From assembly GCA_963965975.1 (NCBI GenBank), contig OZ014414.1, positions 3,137,501 through 3,201,500 on the forward strand: a stretch of 64,000 nt of DNA, given 5' to 3'. The DNA comes from Xestospongia bergquistia (taxonomy: Eukaryota; Porifera; Demospongiae; Haplosclerida; Petrosiidae). The notes beneath the pieces are model-generated. The model was not told the DNA's origin. It saw only the letters and a list, made by a program, of their open reading frames with translations, and ran no database searches. Of this stretch, positions 8,041 to 59,987 are shown piece by piece. Within the stretch, counting starts at the first letter, position 1, and every line of letters starts with the position of its first letter. The position numbers and the translations under genes were made by a program.

Positions 8041-9067
8041 ATAATGGCTGCACAGTACCAGGCTGGTGTGCTTTTTCTTGGCCTAAAAGCTATTAGACTT
8101 TGCAAGAAAAGAAGCAAGAAGAGTGGAAAGAACACTCAAAAAATTTAAGAAGAGACTCAGAAGAAGGAAGCGTTTAATAATGAGAAAAAAAGATATTTCA
8201 TTACAAGCATTTCTATTATAGTTATTTTTCTTATTAGTTTGATTATTTTGAACACTTTCTACAAGCCTCCCGTTATTCATACTGTATGGTATAAAAACAG
8301 AACAATAGATTACTGGGAAGCAGCCAAAGCAGCCCTTTTTGGAGATGATTGGTGGCCCGAAGATCTCTTTTGATAAATTATGCAAAGATCTGAGGCCTTA
8401 CATACAGAAACAAGGTTCATACATCCTATTCCTCTGGACCAGAGGGTAGCTGTAACCTGTGGAGATTGGTGATCAATGTTGAGTATTGTACCATGGCTGA
8501 ATTGTTTGGATTAGGAGTTTTTACTGTTGGTCAGATATTTGTTGACACTTGTGACATGATTGTACAACATCTCCTTCCAATATATGTAACCATACCTTCA
8601 TGTGAAGATTTTAAGTAAATTGTGAATGGCTTTGGGAAGCTATGGGGATTTCCTCAAGCTGTAGTAGCTGTTGATGGTACACACTTACTTATATTATTAA
8701 GCCAGCTGAAAGGGCATCTGACTGAAAAAGGTTTTATTTGATTATCATGCAGGGTGTAGTAGATTTTCATGGACGTTTTATGGATGTTATCATTTGCTGG
8801 CCAGGTAAAGTCCATGATGCCTTAGTCTTAATGAATTCTTCGTTTTACACAAAAAATAACAATGGTAATACCTTTCCTGACTGCAACAGAAACATTGGTG
8901 AAGTTGATGTACCACTTATAGTTTTAGGTAATGAAACATACCCTGATAGGAGGAGTTTAAGTATAAAAGAGCAACAATTCAATTACCGTCAAAGTGGAGA
9001 ATGCCTATGGATGACTGAAGGGAAGATGGAGATGTCTTCTCAAAAGAATGGACTATTACTCAATTAA
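8041..9067 (+). pseudogene. Decayed PIF/Harbinger (HARBI1-like) transposase
   Basis: The conserved blocks of a Harbinger DDE nuclease appear in order but in shifting frames: RTIDYWEAAKAALFGDDWWP, LCKDLRPYIQK, PIPLDQRVAVT, a helix-turn-helix-like stretch (AELFGLGVFTVGQIFVDTC), LWGFPQAVVAVDGTHLLI with the first catalytic Asp, then an open frame 8738-9067 with GVVDFHGRFMDVI and WPGKVHDALV (second Asp). Only VLGNETYP follows, and the usual final Glu-containing block is not seen. Several stops and frameshifts interrupt it, so it is inactive. Such proteins cut and paste the element in the nucleus. Confidence 0.8.
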
Positions 9068-26504: not shown

Positions 26505-28564
26505 ATGGCTAGAAAGTATACTACAGATGAAGTATGTGAATTAGTAATGAAAGACAGTGATCATAAGATGGAAGAGTATATTTTTTCTGGAAGTGATGAT
26601 GAATTGGATGCTGAAGTGTTGGAAGAACTGGATGCTAGAGAAATGGAAGATATGTTAGTTGGTGCAAATGTTATACTTGGAAATGATACTGATTATAGTA
26701 GTGATAATGATGATGATAGTTATGTTGGTGATTATGCAAGTAAAATAGGTGGAAATGATAGTGATAGAGAAAGCAATACTAGTAGTGATATGAACCTTCA
26801 ATCAAGTGGTAGTCGTGGGAAAAAGGACGTTCTCGTGGTAGAGGTTGTGGTGGTCATAGAAGTAGTCGAGGTGGTAGAGGTCGTGGTAGAGGTCATGGTA
26901 AAGGATGTCATAGAGCTCGTTGTAGAGAGCAGGGCAAACCTGATAGTAGCAGCAATGATGTTGATTTACAATGGAGTGACCAAGCTTCAGATGTCACCAT
27001 TCAACCATTTGATAGTGTACCAGGACCAACAGTAACTCTTTCTCATAGTCCCTTCCAGATTTTTCTACTGTTTTTTACCAGGGCAATTATCGACCTAATT
27101 GTAGTAGAAACCAACAGATATGCTGCTCAGTGTTTAGGAAACAACAGCTGGAAAACCTGTACAGAGGAAATGTTAGCTTACTTTGGTTTTTGTATATTAA
27201 TGGGGATCAACAATCTTCCAGATATATATGATTACTGGTCAACAGATCCATGTCTTCACTATGCTCCAATAGCATCTAGAATATCACGGAAAAAGTTTAT
27301 GGAAATGAAATCATTTTTGCATTTTGTAGACAAGGATACCATTATACCACATGGACAACCTGGGTTCAACAGGCTGGTACGAGTTCGGCCTATTCTTGAC
27401 CTCCTAAAGTTTGATTCTTTGTATTGTCCACACAGAGATGTTTCAGTAGATGAAGCGATAATCAAATTTAAAGGAAAGTCAAAAATAACACAGTACATTC
27501 CATTGAAAACTATAAAACAGGGAATAAAGGTGTGGATTTTAGCTGACTCAGTCAATGGTTATATCACAGACTGTAAAGTTTACATTGGCAAGGAAGGTGA
27601 AAGAGTTGAAAAAATCTAGGCATGAAGATCGTATCAGAACTCACTTCAAAACTACCTAGTGGTCATCATGTGTACTTTGACAACTACTTTACTTCACTAC
27701 CATTACTACAACATTTACTTGATCATGATGACCTTTATTCCTGTGGAACATTTCGTGTAAATCATGCTGGAATACCATATGTTATCAAACAACTAAGAGA
27801 AGGTATGCAATGATAAGTTATACTTTGTATTTAGGTGATCTCAATCAAGGAGAGTTTATTTTTAGACAAGCCAGACATGTAGTTGTCACAGCATGGAAAG
27901 ATGAAAGACTTGTCTGTGTTATGTCCAGAAATTGTAATCCCACCAGCACTGTCAATGTAAAAAGGAAACAAAATACAATAAAACAACCACTTAATATTAT
28001 CTCATATAATAAGTACATGGGAGGTGTAGACAAGGCGGATCAATTATGTTCATATTACCAACTGCACATGAAATCACGGAAATTCTACATGTAAGAAAAG
28101 ATTAAAATACCATTATCACATATTATTTATTATTTAGGTATATATTCAAGTTCCTATTAGATGTAACCATCACCAACTCGTATATTCTTTTCAAGAACTA
28201 TATACCAGCTACTGCACAAGCAAGGTACAGTTATAAACAATTTAGATTAAACTTAGCGATTGAATTGATTGGAGACTATAACAGTCGTCAACGATATAGT
28301 ATGCCCAGACCCACATATGACTTAGCCAAGGCAAAGTCTACAACTCCCACAAAAAGAAGAAGATCGGACAACATAGATGAGGGAAATGGCCATTACCTTA
28401 CAAAATGTAACAAAGCTAGATGTTGGTACTGCTGGAATGTTAATAAAGTGAGACATGAAACCAGACTAAAATGTAAAGCATGTTATGTTCCTCTTTGCAT
28501 TTATACTCACAATGAAGATGATTGCTGCTTTGAAAAGTATCATATAGATCCACAACTGCATTAG
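26505..28564 (+). pseudogene. piggyBac transposase (DDE_Tnp_1_7), two frameshifts
   Basis: N-terminal acidic region (ELDAEVLEELDAREMED), then an Arg-Gly stretch, then the catalytic core. All three catalytic Asp blocks are present: VSVDEAI (about 27445), VYFDNYFTSLPL (about 27675) and YNKYMGGVDKADQL (about 28010). The C-terminal Cys-rich finger (CWYCWNVNK, CKACYVPLC, DDCCFEKYH) is complete, ending at TAG 28562-28564. Two short introns are inferred (GTATGC to TTTAG near 27802-27833; GTAAGA to TTTAG near 28091-28138). Two 1-nt losses, both in A-runs (about 26820 and 27615), break the frame. Otherwise recent-looking; the breaks could be real or sequencing error. Confidence 0.85.
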
Positions 28565-29131: not shown

Positions 29132-29354
29132 ATGATTGATATTTCTCAATGGAGAATCAACATTGGATTATGGCATTGTTGTCATGTACTACGTAGTGCT
29201 ACAAAGGGAGCTGTCAACGTTACTGGATGGGTAGAGTCATTGCTGTGTTCTGAAAATGGGGATGTTACAAATCTGGTTTTCTCCCTGATTATGTTCCTTT
29301 TGTTGCTTCTTATATTATCAGGTGATGTTGAACTCAATCCTGGACCTTTAACAG
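29132..29354 (+). CDS. First exon of gene D: hydrophobic leader ending in a 2A motif
   Basis: Starts at ATG 29132 (MIDISQWRINIGLWHCC) with G at -3. It has a strongly hydrophobic stretch LVFSLIMFLLLLLIL directly followed by SGDVELNPGP, a perfect D(V/I)ExNPGP 2A ribosome-skipping consensus, then LT and a GTAAAT donor in phase 1. An upstream in-frame ATG at 29039 lies in the piggyBac end and would add 31 residues. At a 2A site the ribosome skips the Gly-Pro bond; the leader would be released and the downstream protein would start with Pro. If skipping fails, the leader could act as a signal sequence. 2A leaders have been reported on NLR-type proteins of sea urchin. Confidence 0.8.
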
Positions 29355-32300
29355 GTAAATATTTGCCTCTTGACATTCAACTGCAGTGAACTGAACTGAT
29401 TGTTAAATTACCATATTGTGACCATCATACTACATTCACACAGTATAGTGTGTATTCATATTATCGCTCCAGTATATTTTATAACATTCTTTTATTTTTG
29501 ATAGTGATAGAGATCTAACAAGATGTCTGTACTTAATTGTTCAATGACACTTTTATGATGTATTGCTGATTTTGTTCTTTTTATTTCATAGATATTAGAA
29601 ATAATTTAAAAGAGATTCCAAGGCACTATGATATGTTATGTCTATTAGCAGATATGCAAAATAGTTGGAGAGACATTGGTTTTGCCCTTAGAGTTTCTTC
29701 TGATTATTTGGATGGTTTATCACGTAGTCCAGACCACCCTCACACCAAACTATCTAATGTAATTAGTAACTGGATTGATTCTCGATCATCTCCTGTTACT
29801 TGGAGCACAGTGATCTCTGCCATTGAAAGTCTTATTGTTAATAACAAAAGGAAAGCTGATGAGATACGAGACTACCTTGGTAAATTAATAATTATTGTCA
29901 AATTACTAATTATAATGTGTGGTAATATCAGTATGATGTAGTAGCTACTTTATGACCAAATATTCTTGTAGGCATTTGCTAAGATTGTGTGAATTCACAT
30001 TAAGTAATAAGTTTTACATTATCATTGATAGTTAAAGCATTAAAAATAGCTTGTAATTATATTTTGAAAACTTCACAATTGTTAATAATATCATCAAATA
30101 GACATTACATTTATATGCAATTATGCATACATTAAAGTATCCCAAACAATGACTGAAAACATGCTTACACTGATTTTCTTTAACTTTACATGTACTTTCA
30201 AATGTCAGCTTTGCAAAGATTGTCATAGATGCAAGCTAATCTGTATTGTACAAGTAAGAAGAAAAATTACTGATGTTGTTATGACTTCTAACTACTATAA
30301 ATAGTACGTTTTCATCGATTTATTACAGGAAGGAAACAGAAGAGACTGAGATCAAACATATCAGAGTCTGATAAAGATGTACCTCCTAGGAAGCCAAAAT
30401 CTCTTACCTTAACATCTGACAGTGACTCAGAGTCATATGACACTTTAAGTAGTTGGGATAAAGAACCAGCTAGTGGGAGACCTTACAAGAAAAAAAGAAT
30501 GCCTCACATAAAGAAAAGAATAACACATAAACATAAAGGTATAGTCTGATTAGTGACATGTAATGAAGATACTTTATTGATTAATTTTATTGTCATATAA
30601 GGCAGATAATAAATATAAAGTGGTAGACAATAGTTTTAATTAATTTCAATGATTTTTGATTATTGTACAACATTATAATAATTTTTTGACTATGTTACAA
30701 ATACAACTGTATTTAGTTTTTAATGCTAATCCTAGTTTTGATAATTTATATTAATTACTTAATGTGATCCATTATGAATTTTATTCATGTTGTTCATTTT
30801 ATATAGGTTGTAAACGAACTAACCAAATAGAGGAAATGCCATCATCAAAGAGGAAATCTACTACTACTTCAAGTCAGCAATTGATAAAACCAAGTTAAAA
30901 TAAAGTACTACATGTGACACTTTCATATATTGCTTCAAATCAAAAGTGTCGTTAAAGCCAAATTTAGGATCACTTTGTACATAACAGCATTTAAATCCAG
31001 GAGTTCTTACCTTCACTATGGAGGAAGAGTGTGAAAATCCCATTCTCAATGATTAGAAAAACTAGCTCATGATTATCTTAGGAAGCTTACCAATTATGAA
31101 TGTGATTAACTACATTATAAATATAATTAAACAATAATTATTCTTACAAAGTTACAGGTAGACACAGAGCTTGTATTTTAAATGTCTGTTACATTTAGTC
31201 ATTTCCATAATATCATGACATCACATGTGAACACACTTGTCAAGTATAGAAGGATGGGTCATAATTAGAATACTTTGGATATTAATTTTAAGGGTGATTT
31301 CTTAGAGATAAAATCAGAACAAAATTTCAAAATTTATCAATGGCAAAATAAAAACCACTGAATTAGTCTTGTTATAACAGTCCCGTTTATTTAGAGAGGA
31401 AGGCCTCATGAGACTACCACTATAATTTACTATCAGTCTACTCAGCATTCATCAAGTTCAGACTTTGTTTAATGCTTTTAACATCATTGTCTTTTACTTT
31501 CAAAATAGTCTTGAGTTATGTAAATTTTGATATTACTCTCCTATTTATTACTAACCATTCAAAATTTTCCGAATGTTATAAAAAAGTCAATATGTCAATA
31601 CATTAGGTTAACTGTTACACTAACATTTACTGTAGTATTATAATTATAGCTTCTTCTCAGGACTAACTGCTAGTTATATTATTATCATAGTAAACAATGT
31701 TATAATGTCTTCTAACAACTGTAAATAGTAAGTGTTTTTTAATTTATCACAGGAGAAAAACAGAAGAGACTGAGATCAAATATATCAGTGTCTGATAAAG
31801 ATATTTCTCTTAGGAAGCAAACATTTCCTACTGTATCATCTGACAGTGAGTTAGAGTCATATTACAAATCAAGTATACGTATACGTGGTAAAAAACCAGC
31901 TAGTGGGAGATATTACATGAGAAAAGGAACATTTCACAAAATTACATCTTCAAGAATACCACATGAACATAAAGGTATATATATATAATTATGCTTTGAT
32001 TTAGTGATGTGTAATGAAGATACATTATGGAATCATTGTCATGTTAGGTAGGCAAGAGGGAAATAAAAGAGGATAATACTTATAATCAATTTCTATTTAC
32101 ACTGTATTAACTTGATCATTGTTCAGCATATTAACAATTTTTTTAACTCTGTTACAAGTAGTAATTACGTTTAATCATATTACATATAATTTGAACGAGA
32201 TCTCTTTCATATTAAAGCCGACATAAGATAGCAGCACATGTAACACTTTCATATATTGCTTCAAATCAAAAGTGTTTTCAAATCCAATATCCAATTTTAG

Positions 32301-35300
32301 GATCACTTAGAATACAACAGCATGTGCCACACTCAAATAACTAAGAAGAGGACCCCTTACTTCACTACAGAGGAAGAGTATGTAAATCCAATTCAATTCT
32401 AAAGCATTAGAAAAAATAGTTCAGGATCATATTTAGAAGCTTAACAATTATGAATGTTATTAATCATGCTATCAATATAATTAAACATTTGCTTATACAT
32501 TCCTTCATAATTTTTCCGAAAAGAAATACTTATGTGAATTGGGTAAATATAGCACTAGTTACCATTTACAGGAGTTTGGCATTGACTTGCAAGTACAGAG
32601 AGTCAATGGCTTTTTTCACTCACATGGCTTACAATACCAAATTTTCTTAAGGCTTTTAGGAAGTAGTTGTCCCATACACTATAGAGATTGTTTAGTATTT
32701 GTGATATGAACAATCGAAAAACATGCTAATATATGTAAACTGTTAGTTTTGTATGTTAAGTGTCTCTGATAGTCCTGAATATGTGTAAAGTTCACAAAGC
32801 CATCGAATACTCTTAAATAACGGAAAGTAGTCTTTGCAGGTAGCCTTAACCTCAACAACTCCATTTTAGGGTAAGACTTGAAGTAATGAATAATTCTAAT
32901 GTTATTTGATTTACTTTTTGTCGGAATTATTTTTGATGTCATAGTATATTTACATAGATTGTACGTGCATGTGTGGACACTCCTTTTTATTAAAATGTTT
33001 ATGTCTGCTATCAAATAGATTGACGAATAAAATAAGTCATGCATTGACACTTCATAGTATAGTTCAAGTAATCTCATTAGTTAGATGCTGGTACTAATTT
33101 TTCAGTTACCTTTGCTTTTAAAGTTACTATTAAGGTTTCTTAGTTCCAATAAAGCTTGTTGTGTAGTTATGTGTTATGTTGTTTATACTTCATAACAAAT
33201 TGGAACTACTGTATAGATTTAAAGACTATTATATGACTACACTCTTGACTATGTATGCTTGGCATGATAGTTACTATTCTTTAGCTACTCTTAATTTGTA
33301 TATAGTTTCTTTGGTCTAAGACTCTGACATATTTTCAACACTATTGCACAATGCATGTCTACATAAATAGTCAACCGTTTGTGTTCCTAACTTTGTTTTG
33401 TAAGTAACTGTTGTTGTACATATATACATACCTTATATCCTCTTGATTTTTTTATTATTAGGAGGACCAAAAATGATGCAACATAGTAAAACTAAAGATG
33501 TTGATATACAAAAGTTTCAACTAGTAACGAAACATTCAACTCAACTAAAAGAAGGTATTGTCAGTAATGTTATTCTAATAGATGTTATTGTCATAAAAAA
33601 TCTTTTTTATTATGTTGTTAATTACTATTATACTGATCTATTTATAATGCGGAACAATAGTTTTCGGACAAAGAAATTGAAGTAAATGTATCAGAATGCC
33701 TTTTTGCTTGATGCGTCATATGACTATTAAATGATGCATAATAAGATCTTTGTTTAATCAGAGATATATCGTCATTAGACTCTGATTGGCGAGAAGATAG
33801 TATGTTACATTACATTGTCGATGCACTTTGAAATGGGCATTATAAATCTTAATTTTATATGATTTAATACTTCACTCATCAATTTGACTTAATGAATTAT
33901 AAAATCTGTAAAGAGAAACACACTTAGAAATAGTGTACCTTGTATTAGCCTTCCATTAGACACGTGTGCAAGTTGTGTATTGGCAAATATTCTCTCATGC
34001 AGTGTGACATGTGAAATGTCCCTGACCATCCTTGAGTATATAACACATTCCAACAACATATAAATAGTAGTCACTGCAGTCAGCCTCAACTTTAACAATT
34101 TAATAACAGCTTAAGTTTATGGTGAGGCTTGGAGATGGGGGCATTTAATGAAAGTGGTGATGTAAAATTCTAGCTTAAAAATTGACTTCCTCCAGTCTGA
34201 GTTATTTTTTTATAATCAGCACATGTATGTACATTTTATGTTTATGAGTTGACACGCCTTCTTATTATGAAGTTGATAGCTTCTACCAAATAGATCAATG
34301 AAAACACACTTGAAGCTTTAGAGTATATATTTTGGACCTTAAGCAACATCATAATGAGTTGCAGGTAACTACTTTTTTAATTCTCTTGGCTTTCAAATTT
34401 ACTCATTGGCTTTTTTGGTTCTATTTAAACTTCCTGAGTAGCTATTCATAAACAACTGAGGACTACTGACTAGACTTTAAGACTGTTATCCTAATAAGCC
34501 CTTGCCTATCTATGCTTGACTTCATAGTTACTATTCTTAAGAGTATAATTTGTGTATTTCATGAGATGTGTAAGCTGGCAAGACTGATCATGTTTCCTAG
34601 CTTTTTTTATTTCTATATGTTATCATTTATCCTAGAGTTGAGATGTCACTTTGATGACACTAGAACAATGAATTTGAAGTAAATGTACCAGAATGCCTTT
34701 TTGCTTGAAGTGTGACTCTAAGACACTGTTAAATGATCCATAATTAGATCTTTGTTTATTAAGAGGTATATTGTCATCAGAGTTTGATTGACAAGAATGT
34801 AGTTCTTCTTCTCAGCCTCTTTCTTTCCTATGACAAGTATTTAATTTTGACATACATAATGAATGTGCTGTATCTCTAGTATAAGATGCTAGCTGCACAA
34901 GTGTTACAATATGATTTCATTAAGTCAATGTATTACTTGGCTTAATAGGCATTACCACTCTGACTTTATACTTTCTTTAGTCTTAGACTCTAATTTAGTT
35001 TAAATGCTATTGTACATTGGATGAGTTGTGTAAATGGACAAGTTGATGGTTTTTTTCTAGCCTTTTTGCACCTGTATATGTTATCTTTCATCTTCTTAAT
35101 TTGGCATGTTATTAGAAGTAGCAGAAATGATGCAACGTAGTGAAACTAAAGATCTTGAGCTAGAAAGGCTACCACTAGTAAAGGATGAATCAATTCAACT
35201 AAAAGAAGGTATTGTCAGTAATCTTATAATGATATATGTTGTTGTTGTTGGTAAACTATCACTCTCCCTATATGTATAATTATGATTATATATATTGTAT

Positions 35301-37877
35301 ATATCTATTTAAAGGAATGGTGATAGTAGGAGAGAACTATTCTAAGTTTAGTGCTGCTAAAGATCAACAATTATCAGTTGAAGAGTGTGGGCTAAACATT
35401 TTAATACCTGCACAAGTTATTTCACCAGTAGACACTTTATATGAAATTTCTGCTAATGGATTGTGGGGTGAGAAATTTGAGTTTCCTGAAAATAGCACAC
35501 TTATAAGTGGTGTTTGTTATATATCAATATCTAATTCGTCTCAACTCAATAAACCAGTTACAATTCTACTAGAACATTGTGTTAATATTACTGATGACAA
35601 ACAAGCAGAATATCTCAGTTTCGTTGTTGCTAAATCTGGTCCACCTATCAGGTTTGAATACCTATCAGGAGGATCATTTCGTCCTAATTTACAATATGGC
35701 ACTATACATCTCAAAGAATTTTCATACATAGCTATTGTACTTTGTGTTGCATTTGGTGGTGCCACGTTAGGGCTAGTAGGTGGAGTTGTAGGAAGTGTAT
35801 TAAGCAGTGCCATGTTGGATTTAGGAGGAGTAGCTCTAGGAGCTGCAGTTGGTGGTGCCATTGGATATCATTATGCTACTAGTAAGTATATACTGATCAG
35901 TTACACATGCATGGAATTAAATGATTAAAACAATGGTGTAATGTTATGAATAAACTTTGAATTAAAGTGAACATATTAATTATATACAATGCCACTTTAA
36001 ACAGATACTGCTGAACTTCCTGACTGCAAGTATCGAGGTTATATCTTTTATGAATTAGTAAATGTGGAAACATGGAAGATGCGTTTTACAGTTGTTCAAG
36101 ATAATACATATTCTGATGTAATAAGTGCTCATCAGTTTTAATGATGATTGTAATCATCAATGTTTCCTATATAGAAAACTCTAAAATTGAAATCTAAGTT
36201 TGGTAATGAAGAAGACAACTTTCCATTTCGTTTTGCTACTAAGGTATCTGAAGAGAATTTAAAATTATTAGGATTCCCCGATGAAGCAGTTGATGGATGG
36301 GAAATAACACCACTACGTACACCACTTGTAGTAAGTAATCATAAATGTTATGTCTTTTGTGTGTGTGGAGGAGGGGGATGTTTTAACAAAAAATTATATG
36401 TAAATTACATGAACTGTAAGTTATCTGTTTTTACATTTAAATTACTTTGATTTAGATTAACAGGAAAGATGCTGATGACTTTAGTCAGTCAAGGAGTGTT
36501 AATCCTCCTAATATTCCAGTACAAGTAACTGCTAATCCTAGAATGAGTGACTTCAAAAATAATCTAAAACATACTATAACAATTGAAGGTATTGAAGTTA
36601 CTGAGAGTCAAGCATTACCTACAATTGTGATTACTAGATCACTGATGAGTAATTTACAAAGTAAGTGTCTGTTTAATACTTATCTATGTAGTATTCTAAT
36701 TATAACCTTACTCTGAGCATTCCAAATATTGTTATTAATAACTATTTTTAAGCTAAGTGCCAAAGCACAAGTCAGTCAATTATGGTAAATACAGCTTTCA
36801 ATTCTAAGCCAGAATACATATATTATGTACATTACCTTCTGTATATCCAGTAATGTTTATGTTATATAAGTTTTGTGGTTCATTATAATAACAAAAAACA
36901 TGTATAAAGGATCATACGTATAATATACCTCAAAAAGTAACAACAAAGCAACCACAACCAGGCCACCACAATAGCAAAAACAACAAATATAACAAACCAC
37001 AAAAAACCATCAAAGCTTAAAAATGAAGTTAAAGCTAATAAAATCGAATTTATAGTATGTATGTCTGCACTCAGTAATACAATTATCAATATTCAACAAT
37101 GTAATAATAGATGTAGAATGAACAATGCCAGTGAGTGTGGGAAAAGTGGTGACAGACAGAGAAAGACTAAGCATACGAGATGCTTCTAATGTCCGGTCAC
37201 AATGAGACAGTGAGCAAGGAAATGTAAACACAACTACAGCTTTATTCATTATCAATGAGTTAAGAAAGAGTTTCTTAATGATACCTTACATGTAAGGATT
37301 TTACCAAAACTCCCTTATCTTGTTCAAAGGACACTTCTGTTTAAGCCATAACTATGTATTCTACAATTGACTTCCAGTTATAGATACCATCCATAATGAA
37401 TATTGTGTTTGTATTTGTATTTTGAATTGTTGGCTGTTTTTGGAACAGTCTGACTTGGTAAATCGTCTATACATGTGTTAATACCAATAACATGATTTTA
37501 TTTGTTTTATTCTTTAACAAAGCAAACATTGTTTTGTTTGATCAATACTAAAATTGTATATTTACCGTTTCATATTAGGTAATATAGTTAAAGGAGGTGT
37601 ACATGTATCTTCTTTACCAGATCATATCTTGGATCAACAACCTACAATTCAAGAAATAACTACACATGCTAAAACTGAAAAATGGAATGAATTGGGTACA
37701 CAATTACAACTGAACAGTGTCAATCTGGCTGAATGTCATAGTTTAACTAGTATGTATCAGTTATGGATTCAAGAGAAAGCTGATAAAGCAACAAGAAGGA
37801 GTTTGTTAGATGCTTTAAAAACTATTAAACAGAACAATGTAGCTATGGTTTATGAAAATTATTTAAAAAATCAATAG
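29132..37877 (+). CDS. Gene D: 2A-leader, Death, ZU5, Death protein (multi-exon)
   Basis: Best preserved host gene. Proposed exons: 29132-29354, 29592-29879, 30329-30538, 30807-30898 (alternative end), 31753-31974, 33462-33554, 35116-35208, 35315-35881, 36004-36117, 36175-36330, 36456-36660, 37579-37877. Apart from the two joins inside the region after ZU5 (36117/36175 and 36330/36456), junctions are phase 1. Order of modules: hydrophobic leader with a 2A motif, Death domain, basic/acidic linkers, ZU5, Gly-rich membrane-like segment, unidentified exons, Death domain, stop. ZU5 plus Death recalls UNC5/PIDD/ankyrin-like signalling proteins. It probably acts as a Death-fold signalling adaptor or receptor. 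Whether all exons belong to one transcript is inferred from phase and order only; exon 30807-30898 ends in a stop and must be skipped in the long form. Confidence 0.6.
29592..29879 (+). CDS. N-terminal Death-domain exon, gene D
   Basis: A 288-nt exon, acceptor TTTCATAG, donor GTAAAT, phase 1 to phase 1. It encodes about 96 residues with the Death-fold signature: WRDIGFALRVSSDYLDGL, then KLSNVISNWIDSR, and SPVTWSTVISAIESLIV, ending ADEIRDYLG. Death domains form homotypic helical assemblies in apoptotic and immune signalling. It follows the 2A exon directly, so it would lead the processed protein. Confidence 0.8.
30329..30538 (+). CDS. Basic/acidic cassette exon ex3a, gene D
   Basis: A 210-nt exon, acceptor ATTACAG, donor GTATAG, phase 1 to phase 1. 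It encodes GRKQKRLRSNISESDKD, then an Asp/Ser run (SDSDSESYDTLSS), EPASGRPYKKKRM, and ends THKHKG. The basic clusters resemble nuclear localisation signals, and the Ser/Asp runs resemble casein-kinase sites. Homologous cassettes occur at 31753-31974 (plus), 56495-56701 and 55540-55708 (minus). Confidence 0.65.
30807..30898 (+). CDS. Terminal cassette exon ex4a, gene D (alternative end)
   Basis: Acceptor ATATAG, phase 1 entry, encoding CKRTNQIEEMPSSKRKSTTT then SSQQLIKPS and TAA. The intact copy at 11787-11878 also ends in a stop, which suggests a conserved alternative C-terminus giving a short Death-domain form rather than random damage. Confidence 0.55.
31753..31974 (+). CDS. Cassette exon ex3b, gene D
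   Basis: A 222-nt exon, acceptor ATCACAG, donor GTATAT, phase 1 to phase 1, encoding EKQKRLRSNISVSDKDISLR, then SDSELESYYKSS, KKPASGRYYMRKG and PHEHKG. It is a duplicate of 30329-30538. The flanking sequences 30899-31150 and 32219-32490 are also duplicated, so a segment of about 1.3-1.4 kb was tandemly copied and ex4 was lost from the second copy. Confidence 0.6.
33462..33554 (+). CDS. Linker cassette exon ex5a, gene D
   Basis: A 93-nt exon, acceptor ATTATTAG, donor GTATTG, phase 1 to phase 1, encoding GPKMMQHSKTKDVDIQKF then QLVTKHSTQLKEG. A near copy is at 35116-35208. No domain recognised. Confidence 0.55.
35116..35208 (+). CDS. Linker cassette exon ex5b, gene D
   Basis: A 93-nt exon, duplicate of ex5a: EVAEMMQRSETKDLELERL then PLVKDESIQLKEG, with the same donor GTATTGTCAGTAA. 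It directly precedes the ZU5 exon; spacing and phase allow either ex5a, ex5b or both. Confidence 0.55.
35315..35881 (+). CDS. ZU5-domain exon with Gly-rich membrane-like segment, gene D
   Basis: A 567-nt exon, acceptor TTTAAAG, donor GTAAGT, phase 1 to phase 1, 189 residues. ZU5 features: LSVEECGLNILIPAQVISP (the IP-A loop), FEFPENSTLISGVCYISI, NKPVTILLEHCVNI (the kPv.l.l.HC strand), then YLSFVVAKSGPP. After ZU5 comes IAIVLCVAFGGATLGLVGG followed by Gly-Ala-rich GGVALGAAVGGAIGYHYATS, a glycine-zipper-like hydrophobic stretch that could insert in or assemble at membranes. ZU5 domains pack against UPA and Death domains in UNC5 and PIDD to keep signalling inactive; here the downstream Death exon fits that order. 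Confidence 0.8.
36004..36117 (+). CDS. Exon after ZU5 (possible UPA-like region, part 1), gene D
   Basis: Starts after TTTAAACAG in phase 1, encoding DTAELPDCKYRGYIFYEL then VNVETWKMRFTVVQDN and TYSD; donor GTAATA in phase 0. Beta-rich and hydrophilic. By position it could correspond to a UPA module, but I see no diagnostic motif. Confidence 0.5.
36175..36330 (+). CDS. Exon after ZU5 (part 2), gene D
   Basis: Phase 0 start after CTATATAG, 156 nt, encoding KTLKLKSKFGNEEDNFPFRF and later LKLLGFPDEAVDGWEI; donor GTAAGT after CTTGTA. Keeps frame with the exons on both sides. Domain not recognised. Confidence 0.5.
36456..36660 (+). CDS. Exon linking the post-ZU5 region to the C-terminal Death domain, gene D
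   Basis: Acceptor TGATTTAG, donor GTAAGT, phase 0 to phase 1. It encodes NRKDADDFSQSRSVNPPNIP and later HTITIEGIEVTESQALPTIV. Extended, Pro/Ser-containing hinge. Confidence 0.5.
36661..37578 (+). other. Largest 3' intron of gene D
   Basis: Contains a GC-richer stretch at about 36890-37255. On the minus strand 36883-37089 reads as a hydrophobic peptide, but without splice context or family match. No exon called. Confidence 0.4.
37579..37877 (+). CDS. C-terminal Death-domain exon, gene D
   Basis: A 299-nt exon after CATATTAG, phase 1 entry, ending TAG 37875-37877. It encodes NIVKGGVHVSSLPDHILDQQ, WNELGTQLQLNSVNLAECH, SMYQLWIQEKADKATRRSLL and ALKTIKQNNVAMVYENYL: a complete Death fold (W at the first core position, L-W in helix 4, RR-L-AL in helix 5). 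Paralogous exons: 52528-52838 minus (open), 38884-39015 plus and 51080-51250 minus (remnants). Likely the main signalling domain of gene D. Confidence 0.85.
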
Positions 37878-52238: not shown

Positions 52239-52527
52239 TGGCTAAATATATGACTCAATGTTAAGCCACACTTGCTACTTAGTCTGGTTCACATATTAAA
52301 AAAAAATAATAGCACATAAACTAATGTGAGGAGACTAAAATTTCATTCTTTTAAAATTGACCTTTGTTTTAATTTAATCTAATAGGATATTACATTTAAA
52401 ATCAACCAAGTTGTGATTAGAATTAAAATAGATCAAAGTCAGTTAACAATATTGGGCTATTCATAGCTAAGAGGTCCACTCTATGTACATGTATACATTG
52501 ATGTATGGGGTATACATTGATATATGG

Positions 52528-52838
52528 ACAATGTAACTTACCATAGTTTTTAAATAATCTTCATAACCATCTGCTACATTATTCTGTCTAATTGCTCTTA
52601 AAGCATTTAATAAACTCCTCCTTGTTGCTCCTCTTCCTTTCTCCATAATCCATAACTGATACATACTGGTACAATCATGACATCCAGCTAGAGACACACT
52701 GTTTAGTCCTAGTTTCACACCCAACTTGTTCCACTCTGCAGTTTCAGCATATGTAGTTAATTCTAAAATTTTAGGTTGTTGATCCAAGAGATGATCAGGT
52801 AAAGTAGATACATGAAGACCACCTTCAACTATATTACC
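52528..52838 (-). CDS. Death-domain exon, gene C
   Basis: After ATATTAG, entering in phase 1, it reads NIVEGGLHVSTLPDHLLDQQ, LTTYAETAEWNKLGVKLGLN, SMYQLWIMEKGRGATRRSLL and ALRAIRQNNVADGYEDYLKT: a full Death fold closely related to the gene D C-terminal Death domain. Where gene D ends with a stop, this copy has ACTATGGTAAGTTAC, so the frame either splices at GTAAGT or runs on to 52467. No ZU5 exon was found upstream on this strand. Confidence 0.8.
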
Positions 52839-52839
52839 T

Positions 52840-55120
52840 AATATGAAATAGAAAAATATACAATTTAATATTAATCTATCAAAATGAGTTTTTCTTAGTT
52901 AAACAATATAAGTATAACCATGTATAGATAACTTAATAAGTGAAACTGTTCAAAAAACTTTTGATAATTAAATATGAAATACAAACACAATGTTAATAGT
53001 TGGTATTGTCCATGAACAGGAAGTCCATACATCAATGAGACATTGATACTATTCTTTAGACAATATATACTAAATTTTAGAGCCTAACAGTATTAATTTA
53101 TATTGGAGTATGCACTTCCTGTGCCTTACATTCTCAATTACACTTTTAATATAAACAGTGAAAAAAGCCATTAAAAATATTTATCACAACACCAGAATAA
53201 AGTATAGAGACAGTTAACTTCATCAGATAAATCAGGTTCATGATGTAATCAATGATACAGCACTTGTAGGTTTGGATATATTTTTAGTACACTATAAAGG
53301 TATGGTACTTCCAAAACAAATATAGAATATCATGATAGATAGAACTCATGTGATTTATAGAGAACTAGATATCAGGCAAAGCTCCACTCTCTCTATTTTG
53401 TGAATTATAAAAGTTAATATTACACTGAGATACAAGTGACAGGTAGCTATAAGGTTCAGATAATAGATGACAACAATCTATGACCAAAGAATTAACTGGT
53501 AAAATAATACAAGTTATTTTTTAAAACAAGCTTGTTAGACTCCTTGACTTGATTTATTAATGTGCTATGATGTTATTATGATATCATAATGTTACATACT
53601 AAGTAGAAAAAAGTAACAAAGTGCCCAAAGTAAGTTATATTTGTTTGTTAACAGTGATATTGATCTAGGTAGGTACAACCTGACTTGATGAACATTAGCA
53701 AATCAAACAAATTATAATTACAAACTATTTCTATAATTATTATAATTTCATTCTTTACACAGTTGTAAAGATGGGAGATTTGGTAGCAGTATATACATTA
53801 GGTATGATACATGGTTATACTAATATATGTGGTTGTGTGTATATATATATATATATATATATTGCTATATAAATGTTCAAAGAAAACTACCTTGAAGCTT
53901 CAAGCATTCAAAAATTAATTAGTTAGACAAATGATTATAGCTGTATAAAAACATTTTCATTAAAAATTCGTTTTTGTTTTAATTATCCACACAGTAAACT
54001 GACAATTGATTATGTTCATGTAATTAGTCAAACAGAGTTGGCTAGAATCTGTGGTTTGTGACATGCATCATCTACTGGGAGAATTGTCGATACTTACAAA
54101 TGCATTTACAGTAATTATAATTTCTGAAATGTATAAGAACTGAACTGATTCTTAAAAAATGAATCTTATGAATCTTCAATGAATATTATAGAATGTTAAA
54201 TAAACTTTAATAAGTGTAAATGTCTTGTTGTTATAAAAATGGATACATGCTAATGATTTAGTTTGCTAGAAAATAATCTCTAACTCTCATAAAATGGACA
54301 ATGTACGTGTGACTGGGAAAGCATACAAGATACAAGATTTTCCTTCGTTAATAATGTACTATGCCATCAAAAATAATTCATACAGAACAAAAGCCAATAA
54401 TAAGTTTAATTTATTCATTACCATTTCTTTTATAAACCCTATCTCTTAGCCTTACCCTATAATTTAAGTTGAACTTAAGGCTGTCTGTAATGACTATTGC
54501 TTGTGTTTTGAGTGTTTGATAATTGTATGATTATGTGTATATTCAGGATGACTTTACATGTGAAACTAACTTCTTACATATAATATTATGTTTTGTGATG
54601 ATCATTCATATCAATATTATTAATTAATGTTATAATGTGTGAGACAACTTCTTACTGAAAGCAAAATATACAACAATGAACTTGTTATATTGTAAGTCGT
54701 GTGGCTAAAAAAAACAATAATAGACTGCCTGTGCTTGCTAGCTGCCTGTATCTATGCTTTCACATTGTAAATCGCCAATTGGTCCTATATGGACCCAATT
54801 CACACAACTATTTTTTCGGCAAATTTTTGTCCAAATGACTAAATGTTTAATTATTTCATAGTGTAATTAATTACTTCATAATTGGTAAGCTTCTAAATAT
54901 GATTATAAGCTGGTTTTTCTAATACTTTAGAATTGGACTCATCATCTTTAATGAAGCTAACAGATCCTGCTATTATTTATTTATGAGTTGAAACATGCTA
55001 TCATGTGCATGTTTTAGGTTGTCCTAAGGTTACGTAGGATATTGGCTATGATAATGTTTGATTTGAAGCAATATATGAAATGTCACATTTATTATTATCT
55101 TAAGTTGGCTTTATCAATTA
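52840..55120 (-). other. Long intron-like stretch of gene C
   Basis: No exon recognised. Holds a TA microsatellite at about 53840-53862. In gene D the ZU5 and following exons occupy the comparable position; they are absent here. Confidence 0.45.
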
Positions 55121-57943: not shown

Positions 57944-59987
57944 CATTCATGGAAAACCAAGGTTGCTGACGAGTTTTATTAATAACATTGGCAGTACTGC
58001 TTTCACAACAAACAAGCGTTTTCTTGTCATTCTTTAACTGACAAAAATGCTCTGTACTTTTATTTGAGCATGAGAAACAGAAAAAAAAATTCTTCAATAT
58101 TTCCTAGGTTAGCCATATATTGAAAGTTATTTATCACCTCACAAATTCCTGTATGTACAACATCACGTATAATACTACATCTTTTGCAAGGATCTGAATA
58201 ATATATTGCAATCCAACAAATGCCATCAACTAAAAGAACATCACCATAATCAGTGTGTAAAGTGATGATATTACGATAACGTGGTGTGGAGTTTAGAGGA
58301 CGTTTAAGATAAAAGGCAAGCTTATTTTCAGGATATAAAAGATTGACAACTAATGCAGGGAAGATACCTCGAGGAAATGGCTGCATATCCCAAGAAAGAA
58401 TTAGAGGATCAACGTGTTGCTTAAAAGCAGGTGGTATGGAGTCATAATTGGTGGAAGGTGTAGTAGGAAGGACAGTTGGAATAAAATATTTTTCCTCCTT
58501 GGGTAGATAGGCTATAATGAGTAAACTGGTCATTAAATGGAGAAAATTGTCTACAGTAAAGTCATGAGAGAATCTATTAAATAGGGGTAAAGACAATAAA
58601 TCTTTTGTAAAACATCCTTCGTCTTTGAGCTCCCTATAAACTCTTGGTACGATGTTCATGTCTTTTATACAATGAAATTTGAAATAATCAACTGTTTCAG
58701 GAAAAGAGAGGCTGATCAAATCAGAGAGTATATCAAATAACGGTTGTGAATGAAGAAACACTACATTAGGTAAGATATCAGGAAAGTAGAGGAAGACAGT
58801 CAAATTATGGTAGTACATTAAAGCTGCTTCAACATCATCACTTTTCATTTCTAAGCTTTTGCCAATATCTTGGCATTTAGATTTTCTCACAATAAATATA
58901 TTGGATTGACAAAACTTCTGGTCTAATTCTAACTGAAACAAAAACCATCGGATAGGAATTTCTGCTTTTAGGGAAAAAGCACATATTTGTGAACGTATCT
59001 CATCAGCAATTTCTTTCTTGTGGTTGTCTCTAGCAATAGCATTGACAGGAAAGATTACTGTATTTCCTTTTTCACCATACAGAATTGCTTGATCTTTTAG
59101 ATTTAATTCTTCTAATTTTTAACAAAAAATAGAATTTTTCATTATCAATGATTCACCAGAATAACCAGGCATCAGCACTTTATCATAATATGTCCCTAGT
59201 ACTATACAGTGTGGCTTTTGAGCATTATTTTCATTATTCGCACTTTCAGAGATTACTGGAGGAATAACTGAAGTTATTGAACGAAATGAAGCTTGAAGAA
59301 GCTGTAGATTTGTAATCTGCCTTTCCATTGGCTCACTAATTTGATTTCCTTGAACACTGAAGAAAAACGTAGCTTTATCATTACGTCATTCATCCAGTTT
59401 GTGTGTATAAATATTGACTGAGTTATATCGTAACAGGGCTGGAGAAATATCTATAAAAGCAGCCTGACCTCCAGTATCAATACCATATATCCAATGAGCT
59501 TTATAAAGCTCTTTTGACTCCTGAACATGAGGTAAAAGTTCAATAATTTGCTGAGATACATTAGACTTTGTTCTATCTTCTATTGTGGCTGTTGGTTTAG
59601 AGTTATTTGTGTCTATGTCTTGTAATGGCTGATGTGACTCAGTTGCCACTGGGTGTTCAATTGATTGCTGACTTTCTAACTCAGGAGATATCTCCATGTG
59701 GTTTTTAATATTTCCAGCAATTATTTCCTTTACTTTGTCAGGCTCCACCTTCATCCATAATAAATTATGATCAACTCCTTTGATGGCTGTTGTGACATGT
59801 GCTGGATGTGGGACAACTACATTAGTACTGTTATGTACATTGTCATTATCACTTGGTTCATCATTATATAGTAACTTTAGAAAAGATGATTTACCAGTTC
59901 TAGGTGCACCAGATATTGAAAACTTGGAGAATTCAGCAATTACAAAACCCATCTTCATAGCTTTGTCCAGTAACACATCATTGCCAT
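57944..59987 (-). pseudogene. P-loop GTPase plus COR-like exon (Roc/COR-like), gene C
   Basis: One 2.04-kb exon from TTGCTAG to GTGAGT. Motifs in order: Walker A GAPRTGKSS (59882-59908), a long acidic insert, switch-type IDTGGQAAFIDIS (about 59464), G4-like LGTYYDK (about 59190), then a COR-like region (QILYGEKGNTVIFPVNA segment, VDYFKFHCIK, LPLFNRFSHDFTVDNFLHLM, FPRGIFPALVVNLL, LLVDGICWIAIYYSD) and a C-terminal Cys cluster (CFSCSNKSTEHFC, LVCCESS) ending TRQQPWFSMNG. The DxxGQ and G4 match Ras/Roc-type GTPases. Frame breaks: TGA at 59386-59388 and TAA at 59119-59121, both strictly in frame, and a T-run frameshift near 58080. The assignment to Roc/COR is by motif order. Confidence 0.65.

Follow-up and report, generated by a model that had tools for sequence, protein, structure and literature searches.

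The window, as we call the whole 64,000-nucleotide stretch analysed here, lies on contig C4 and carries on its forward strand the start of a gene whose first exon (29132..29354) encodes a leader peptide and a 2A/StopGo element. The exon comprises 74 codons plus one base and translates to MIDISQWRINIGLWHCCHVLRSATKGAVNVTGWVESLLCSENGDVTNLVFSLIMFLLLLLILSGDVELNPGPLT, followed by GTAAAT; its 72-residue leader terminates in LLILSG-DVELNPGP, after which comes a phase-1 donor. Within it the hydrophobic run LVFSLIMFLLLLLIL (residues 48-62, 29273..29317), recognized from the translation and from hydropathy across 89 leaders, leads directly into the element SGDVELNPG/P (29318..29347, forward strand), for which the 2A break is predicted between Gly 29342-29344 and Pro 29345-29347. 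Members of the family have the initial Met in common, and the 89 full-length copies can be aligned starting there, such a start having been a requirement for their selection, and the start of the window's leader is taken from these relatives because a second in-frame ATG lies further upstream. A six-frame scan of the window finds a single NPGP, that of exon 1, for an expectation of 0.11 per window in second-order Markov shuffles; D(V/I)ExNPGP has one exact copy in the window and none in 200 shuffles. Searched as DNA over the genome, the exact 2A motif occurs at 161 places against 0 for the reversed pattern, and these two controls together rule out a chance origin of the motif.

Intron 1 (29355..29591, forward strand, phase 1) is predicted from the GT at 29355 and the AG before 29592. 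Exon 2 (29592..29879, forward strand) opens after TTTCATAG, in phase (G/AT, Asp), and ends before a GT. This exon, which we call type A, is a putative Death domain, read as such indirectly through a profile link and a predicted fold. Exon 2 alone gives E = 0.058 against Pfam Death (PF00531), two of nine type-A exons match this model at E up to 1 (best 0.0081), and PDB sequences contain no match to exon 2 at E up to 1. The profile of the nine type-A members aligns with L124:4855-5184 (hhalign probability 98.7, E = 2e-16), a region which itself is over the Pfam Death cut-off (E = 8.8e-7), and the AlphaFold model of exon 2 is a confident five-helix bundle (pLDDT 93.3).

Further downstream on the same strand lie a putative basic exon (30329..30538), read from the sequence and having a similar reading frame at ~31755-31976, a ZU5-like segment (35368..35598) in the open frame 35233-35925, and a second Death domain running up to a stop (37542..37874), which is over the Pfam Death cut-off (E = 2.7e-6). 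The match of the middle segment to ZU5 (PF00791, E = 0.011) is below the Pfam cut-off, with 16.4 versus 21 bits, and its structure model failed (pLDDT 32.6); the ZU5 label is weak and we write "ZU5-like" throughout, the exon being kept in three relatives (L009-L011). Compared by hhalign with the second Death domain of the window, neither type A (probability 1.5, E = 0.035) nor type B, the other kind of second exon described below (probability 1.1, E = 0.049), gave anything convincing; types A and B matched each other with E = 2.6e-5 and probability 74.8. An earlier note on this DNA had proposed a canonical 2A at 29132-29354, a hydrophobic leader before it, an in-phase join to a Death-type exon, and a ZU5 and a second Death domain behind. 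The exact octapeptide, sole copy in the window and absent from the shuffles, bears out the first claim and the run at 29273-29317 the second; the phase-1 donor and the in-phase exon 2 agree with the predicted join, and the second Death domain also stands; the ZU5 assignment is weak.

Several other features of the locus were observed. A Gly-rich hydrophobic tail follows the ZU5-like segment (~35740-35895) and is longer and repeat-like in L010 and L011. Over 35314-37874 of the window, the ZU5-like exon, the next open reading frame and the second Death exon are identical to those of L009 in the codons compared, and the leader exons of the two genes differ at 7 sites and their second exons at 8; the pair is a recent copy with an apparent recombination or conversion boundary. 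Transposase frames at 26813-28561, which we take to be of PiggyBac type, end ~0.6 kb upstream of the leader exon (26813-27616 matches Pfam DDE_Tnp_1_7, E = 1.2e-37), and a fragment of a DDE_Tnp_4 transposase lies at 8726-9064 (E = 1e-5). On the minus strand, a COR-A-like frame at 58063-59118 stays below cut-off (E = 1.1e-5) and a Death domain at 52470-52898 is over it (E = 3.5e-5); they belong to one or more additional genes of the Death or ROCO kind.

The distribution of the leader was analyzed in a genome of 146 Mb in 21 contigs. With the 74-residue exon as query, at least 150 leader-2A places were found among 186 candidates, some of them partial or broken; most of the listed places span residues 1-74 without a stop, and they often stand in arrays (C14, C10, C4, C3, C11, C8, C1). 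Counts given below use 149 places, C4:3382817, half of a broken copy, being omitted. Among the 100 exact-motif places listed (of 161), 75 fall within leader matches and 25 outside. A set of 101 leaders, 100 loci picked for diversity plus the window, was read, and 89 are full length; L063 and L107 have no motif-like tail and ten more have no usable start. Thirteen places outside the leader matches or at the edge of the family were read as well (L109-L121): L110 and L121 add two leaders to the family, L112 and L120 two more whose start is disrupted, and L118 retains the motif and a KTGN tail only. The leader has a median length of 73 residues, and most of the 89 full-length copies have in common the start MID..QWR..IGLW. 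No relative of it was found in Pfam or PDB; in viral_contigs 59 stretches fit a pattern, none of which encodes a relative.

Conservation rises steadily toward the 2A motif. Pooled over 3906 pairs of the 89 leaders, dN/dS is 0.61 in the N-terminal block, 0.25 in the hydrophobic run, 0.10 in SGD(V/I)ELNPGP and 0.007 in NPGP, figures which are descriptive because the pairs are not independent and because pS in the motif (0.29-0.30) is below that of the rest of the leader (0.48-0.58). With a pS of 0.29, the codons of NPGP do change, and the roughly 150 cellular 2A copies are clearly under purifying selection. E and the P, G and P of NPGP are invariant in all 89 leaders and N in 88, the first Pro by construction, since the sequence reader demanded an xPxx tail with limited letters; motif loss is therefore better judged from a search with the N-terminal block. 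The exact octapeptide is present in 86 of the 89. Two of the others (L090, L094) read GVELNPGP, which falls inside the expanded motif of PMC12846837, and one full-length leader, L036, has KPGP, which counts against an active StopGo element.

A motif-blind search with the N-terminal 48 residues as the only query gave 139 places. On the stretch for which the motif list is complete, an exact motif lies within 200 bp of 65 of 77 such places, and of 63 of the 72 that are stop-free; this comparison used 87 of the 100 listed motif places, C4 8.6-8.9 Mb and C7 5.98-6.00 Mb being omitted. The twelve places without the exact motif include L090 and L094, the frameshifted L052 and L097, and three with stops; five stop-free ones (C4:3246901, C4:3560989, C4:6400528, C4:8323920 and C1:14918880) count against the active StopGo proposed below. 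Copies read that have lost it are damaged otherwise, L052, L063, L097 and L107 being frameshifted or stopped. L108 has NPSP and does not have the leader's start.

The surroundings of the motif are equally regular. Ahead of the octapeptide, 65 of the 89 leaders have the hexapeptide LLILSG and 88 have one that ends in (A/S/C)G; at position x within the octapeptide, 83 have Leu. Every one of the 89 has a 19-residue hydropathy maximum of at least 1.73; this 19-residue segment starts at residue 39-54, and the median distance from its end to the final Pro is 6 residues. In 80 leaders a GT donor occurs exactly 7 nt past the Pro codon. In eight of the remaining nine the GT is a few nt off with the phase unchanged, and in the ninth, L036, the usual site is shifted out of phase and an in-phase GT occurs further on.

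To which genes the leaders belong was examined from the domains downstream, gene membership across introns being deduced from order and strand. Two kinds of second exon follow the leaders, type A as in the window and type B (ELTSNNALRLL...), and both look Death-type. Against Pfam Death, the type-B exons of L019 (E = 3.1e-4) and L123 (E = 7.6e-4) are just below cut-off, and for that of L022 Pfam gives nothing at 0.05; on C7, Death matches over cut-off overlap with two relatives of type B. Of 98 type-B places, 79 have a leader no more than 3 kb upstream (median distance 58 bp); of the best 150 of 893 type-A candidates, 28 have one, so type A frequently stands without a leader too. NACHT domains have a leader within 6 kb upstream in 49 of 95 places when four leader-like places with approximate ends are added to the leader list, and in 47 of 95 with the 149 leaders alone. 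By contig the proportion is 9/9 on C11, 20/22 on C10, 3/3 on C14, 9/14 on C1, 6/10 on C4 and 0/29 on C2; a leader is also found downstream in 21 of the 95 places because the genes stand in arrays. The 29 places on C2 form a separate NACHT array (C2:8.83-9.15 Mb) in which none has a listed leader within 6 kb upstream, and this array is a natural comparison set.

Other receptor types carry the leader too. Long ankyrin exons follow the leaders L019, L022 and L023. GBP GTPases have a leader upstream in 5 of the 16 places examined (27 listed), the five leaders belonging to an array at C3 1.54-1.59 Mb, and are matched by Pfam downstream of L016, L017 and L018. Roc-COR is over cut-off downstream of L124 and below it downstream of L021, and the combination of a ZU5-like segment with Death occurs in the window and in L123 on C8 (ZU5 below, Death over cut-off). 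L122 has a second type-A-like exon and then a 700-residue P-loop-like frame, which no Pfam model matches at 0.05. At 4.8 kb past the L013 leader there is a MATH domain, which is not claimed because a minus-strand Death match lies in between. Altogether, 109 of the 149 leaders are followed by at least one match to type A, type B, NACHT or GBP; the 40 without any of these four count against the reading that we prefer below, and they are so many partly because the type-A list holds the best 150 of 893 candidates. To judge from exon order, one leader-2A exon serves at least five receptor architectures. The earlier note had presented 2A, ZU5 and two Death domains as a single unusual link; with the same leader also before NACHT, ankyrin, GBP and Roc-COR, what survives of its overall reading is the motif, the leader, the join and a parallel with sea urchins, and the one-off architecture and the firm ZU5 label are given up. 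A tree of the leaders, built on few columns and with 51 of 85 inner branches weak and 43 of 89 rows labelled, needs 6 changes for the five architecture groups, where shuffling gives a mean of 12.7 and no value as low in 200 trials; leaders cluster by architecture, a result that says nothing on how often the leader was acquired.

The genome also contains frames in which a Leu run and a 2A stand before a PHD finger (L111, L113, L116 and L117, on C1 and C4). Pfam PHD_5 is over cut-off in L113 and L116 and below it in L111 and L117, and L109 and L114 resemble these frames by eye; L115 and L119 were placed in neither class. Such a layout is, we assume, of the non-LTR retroelement type; the label is likely and unproven, because the short stretches read gave no Pfam match to an endonuclease or a reverse transcriptase. 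These frames are a possible source of the leader 2A. As in non-LTR retrotransposons with 2A, the PHD finger is there in the same frame as the 2A, whereas the leader exon has neither PHD nor retroelement domains in frame after the 2A and is followed by a donor and by Death or other receptor exons.

Taken together, these observations make it probable that StopGo is active in the leaders, yielding a cytosolic Death receptor and a free hydrophobic leader, with a minority of unskipped protein at the membrane. What the sequence establishes is the motif, its copy number, the selection on it and its position ahead of Death exons and several receptor types; that the exons are spliced and the ribosome skips, how much of each product is made, where the two go and what becomes of the leader peptide is what we infer here. 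The leader-2A exon would be the common 5' module of a large repertoire of Death-domain immune genes. During translation the L-rich run and DVELNPG would occupy the ribosome exit tunnel and the Gly-Pro bond would not be made; most ribosomes would continue, to produce a separate cytosolic protein consisting of Pro, a few residues and the Death domain, in the case of the window a Death-(ZU5-like)-Death protein starting at Pro. The released 71-residue leader would be a peptide of its own with a hydrophobic segment on its C-terminal side. Where the bond is formed, the run, at about residues 49-67, could serve as a signal-anchor within the chain, by which a minority of the receptor would reach membranes. 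Geometry suggests that the run is still in the exit tunnel at the time of skipping, so that skipping would be decided before the run is exposed, and this order would favour a receptor that is found mostly in the cytosol, the anchored part being smaller. Certain proteins that are translocated into the ER are on record as inhibitors of the 2A reaction (PMC2978324).

It is conceivable, if clearly less probable, that the 2A is active but that the leader is made for removal, the run being the L-rich part of the 2A with no meaningful membrane form. By analogy with the 2A sequences of PMC12846837, where L-rich hexapeptides with an (A/S/C)G ending are a known class, the run may indeed belong mainly to the 2A itself, as its L-rich upstream part. 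F2A employs an L-rich tunnel cluster, and the distance of six residues from Pro would likewise put the run in the tunnel when skipping is decided. In HeLa cells, moreover, both products of the wild-type sea urchin construct SpNLR2A6 were cytosolic, unskipped fusions going to the exocytic pathway (PMC4981915). The run of 15-16 residues is nevertheless longer than a hexapeptide, its 19-residue hydropathy is at least 1.73 in all 89 copies and its dN/dS is 0.25, and the long N-terminal block is retained too. The freed leader could also be a product in itself, a small membrane peptide made 1:1 with each receptor and having a signalling or defence role. The leader is open and under some constraint, with its common start; the weak constraint on the N-terminal block and the want of a Pfam, PDB or viral-contig relative make such a role unlikely. 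As for a retroelement relic, a 2A exon derived from non-LTR retroelements and kept by descent or gene conversion and not for skipping, the PHD frames of this genome are what speaks for it, yet NPGP has undergone synonymous change with almost no amino-acid change across deeply diverged copies, leaders and PHD frames have by inspection no common block beyond the run and the 2A, and this explanation of the maintenance of the 2A is disfavoured as highly improbable.

Returning to active skipping with a minority membrane form, a bolder proposal can be made, which we regard as speculative: the leader-2A could be a repertoire-wide switch through which a single ribosome-level event decides, jointly for Death receptors of the NACHT, ankyrin, GBP, Roc-COR and ZU5-like types, how much protein stays in the cytosol and how much goes to the membrane, globally tunable and perhaps derived from retroelements in parallel with sea urchins. 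If so, global tuning would be possible, for example by an infection that alters release factors or ribosome pausing. Most of what is known of 2A comes from viruses and from its use as a laboratory tool. The present genome has it in about 150 cellular gene copies and at least five architectures, and with so many selected copies it becomes directly testable what purpose ribosome skipping serves in cells.

The nearest known system is SpNLR2A of Strongylocentrotus purpuratus (Roulston 2016, PMC4981915), cited here from the part of the article at hand. Its introduction gives 2A-like N-termini for ~35% of sea urchin NLRs (85/241) and its results 14 of 87 NCBI entries with a 26-residue leader; a leader of this type skips and targets in reporters. 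Both systems have an N-terminal 2A on Death-type receptors including NACHT, a hydrophobic lead-in and many members, and S. purpuratus too has 2A in non-LTR retrotransposons. Because sea urchin NLRs already have N-terminal 2A leaders, the mechanism itself is not a novelty. What looks new is the long leader exon and the fact that at least five architectures use it: our searches brought up no account of 2A in immune genes of sponges or of one leader on several receptor types, prior notice being possible in the survey of eukaryotic and viral 2A cited by PMC12846837, and the available part of the Dysidea avara NLR paper contains none of "2A-like", "signal peptide" and "ribosome skipping".

The present leader agrees with SpNLR2A in placing a 2A at, or close to, the N-terminal end of an immune receptor, and it differs from the 26-residue N-terminal signal found there. 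It has a median of 73 residues, an exon of its own and an N-terminal block, and its hydrophobic segment starts at residue 39-54 and not at the N-terminus; for these reasons of length and position it is not filed as an SpNLR2A-type member. Unlike SpNLR2A as reported on NLRs in that part of the article, it is also found on ankyrin, GBP, Roc-COR and ZU5-like genes. With the 2A of picornaviruses and other RNA viruses it has in common the octapeptide and an L-rich (A/S/C)G hexapeptide. Its LLILSG falls in the LLLLSG-like class (motifs 2 and 6), a favourable 2A context, motif 6 having supported StopGo in reticulocyte lysate (PMC12846837). In the same source viral L-rich motifs go with Ser at position x, whereas Leu is found there in 83 of our 89 leaders, which counts against active StopGo, and the 2A of the leaders is cellular and N-terminal. 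The sea urchin case would extend to another genome, which raises the question of repeated capture from retroelements.
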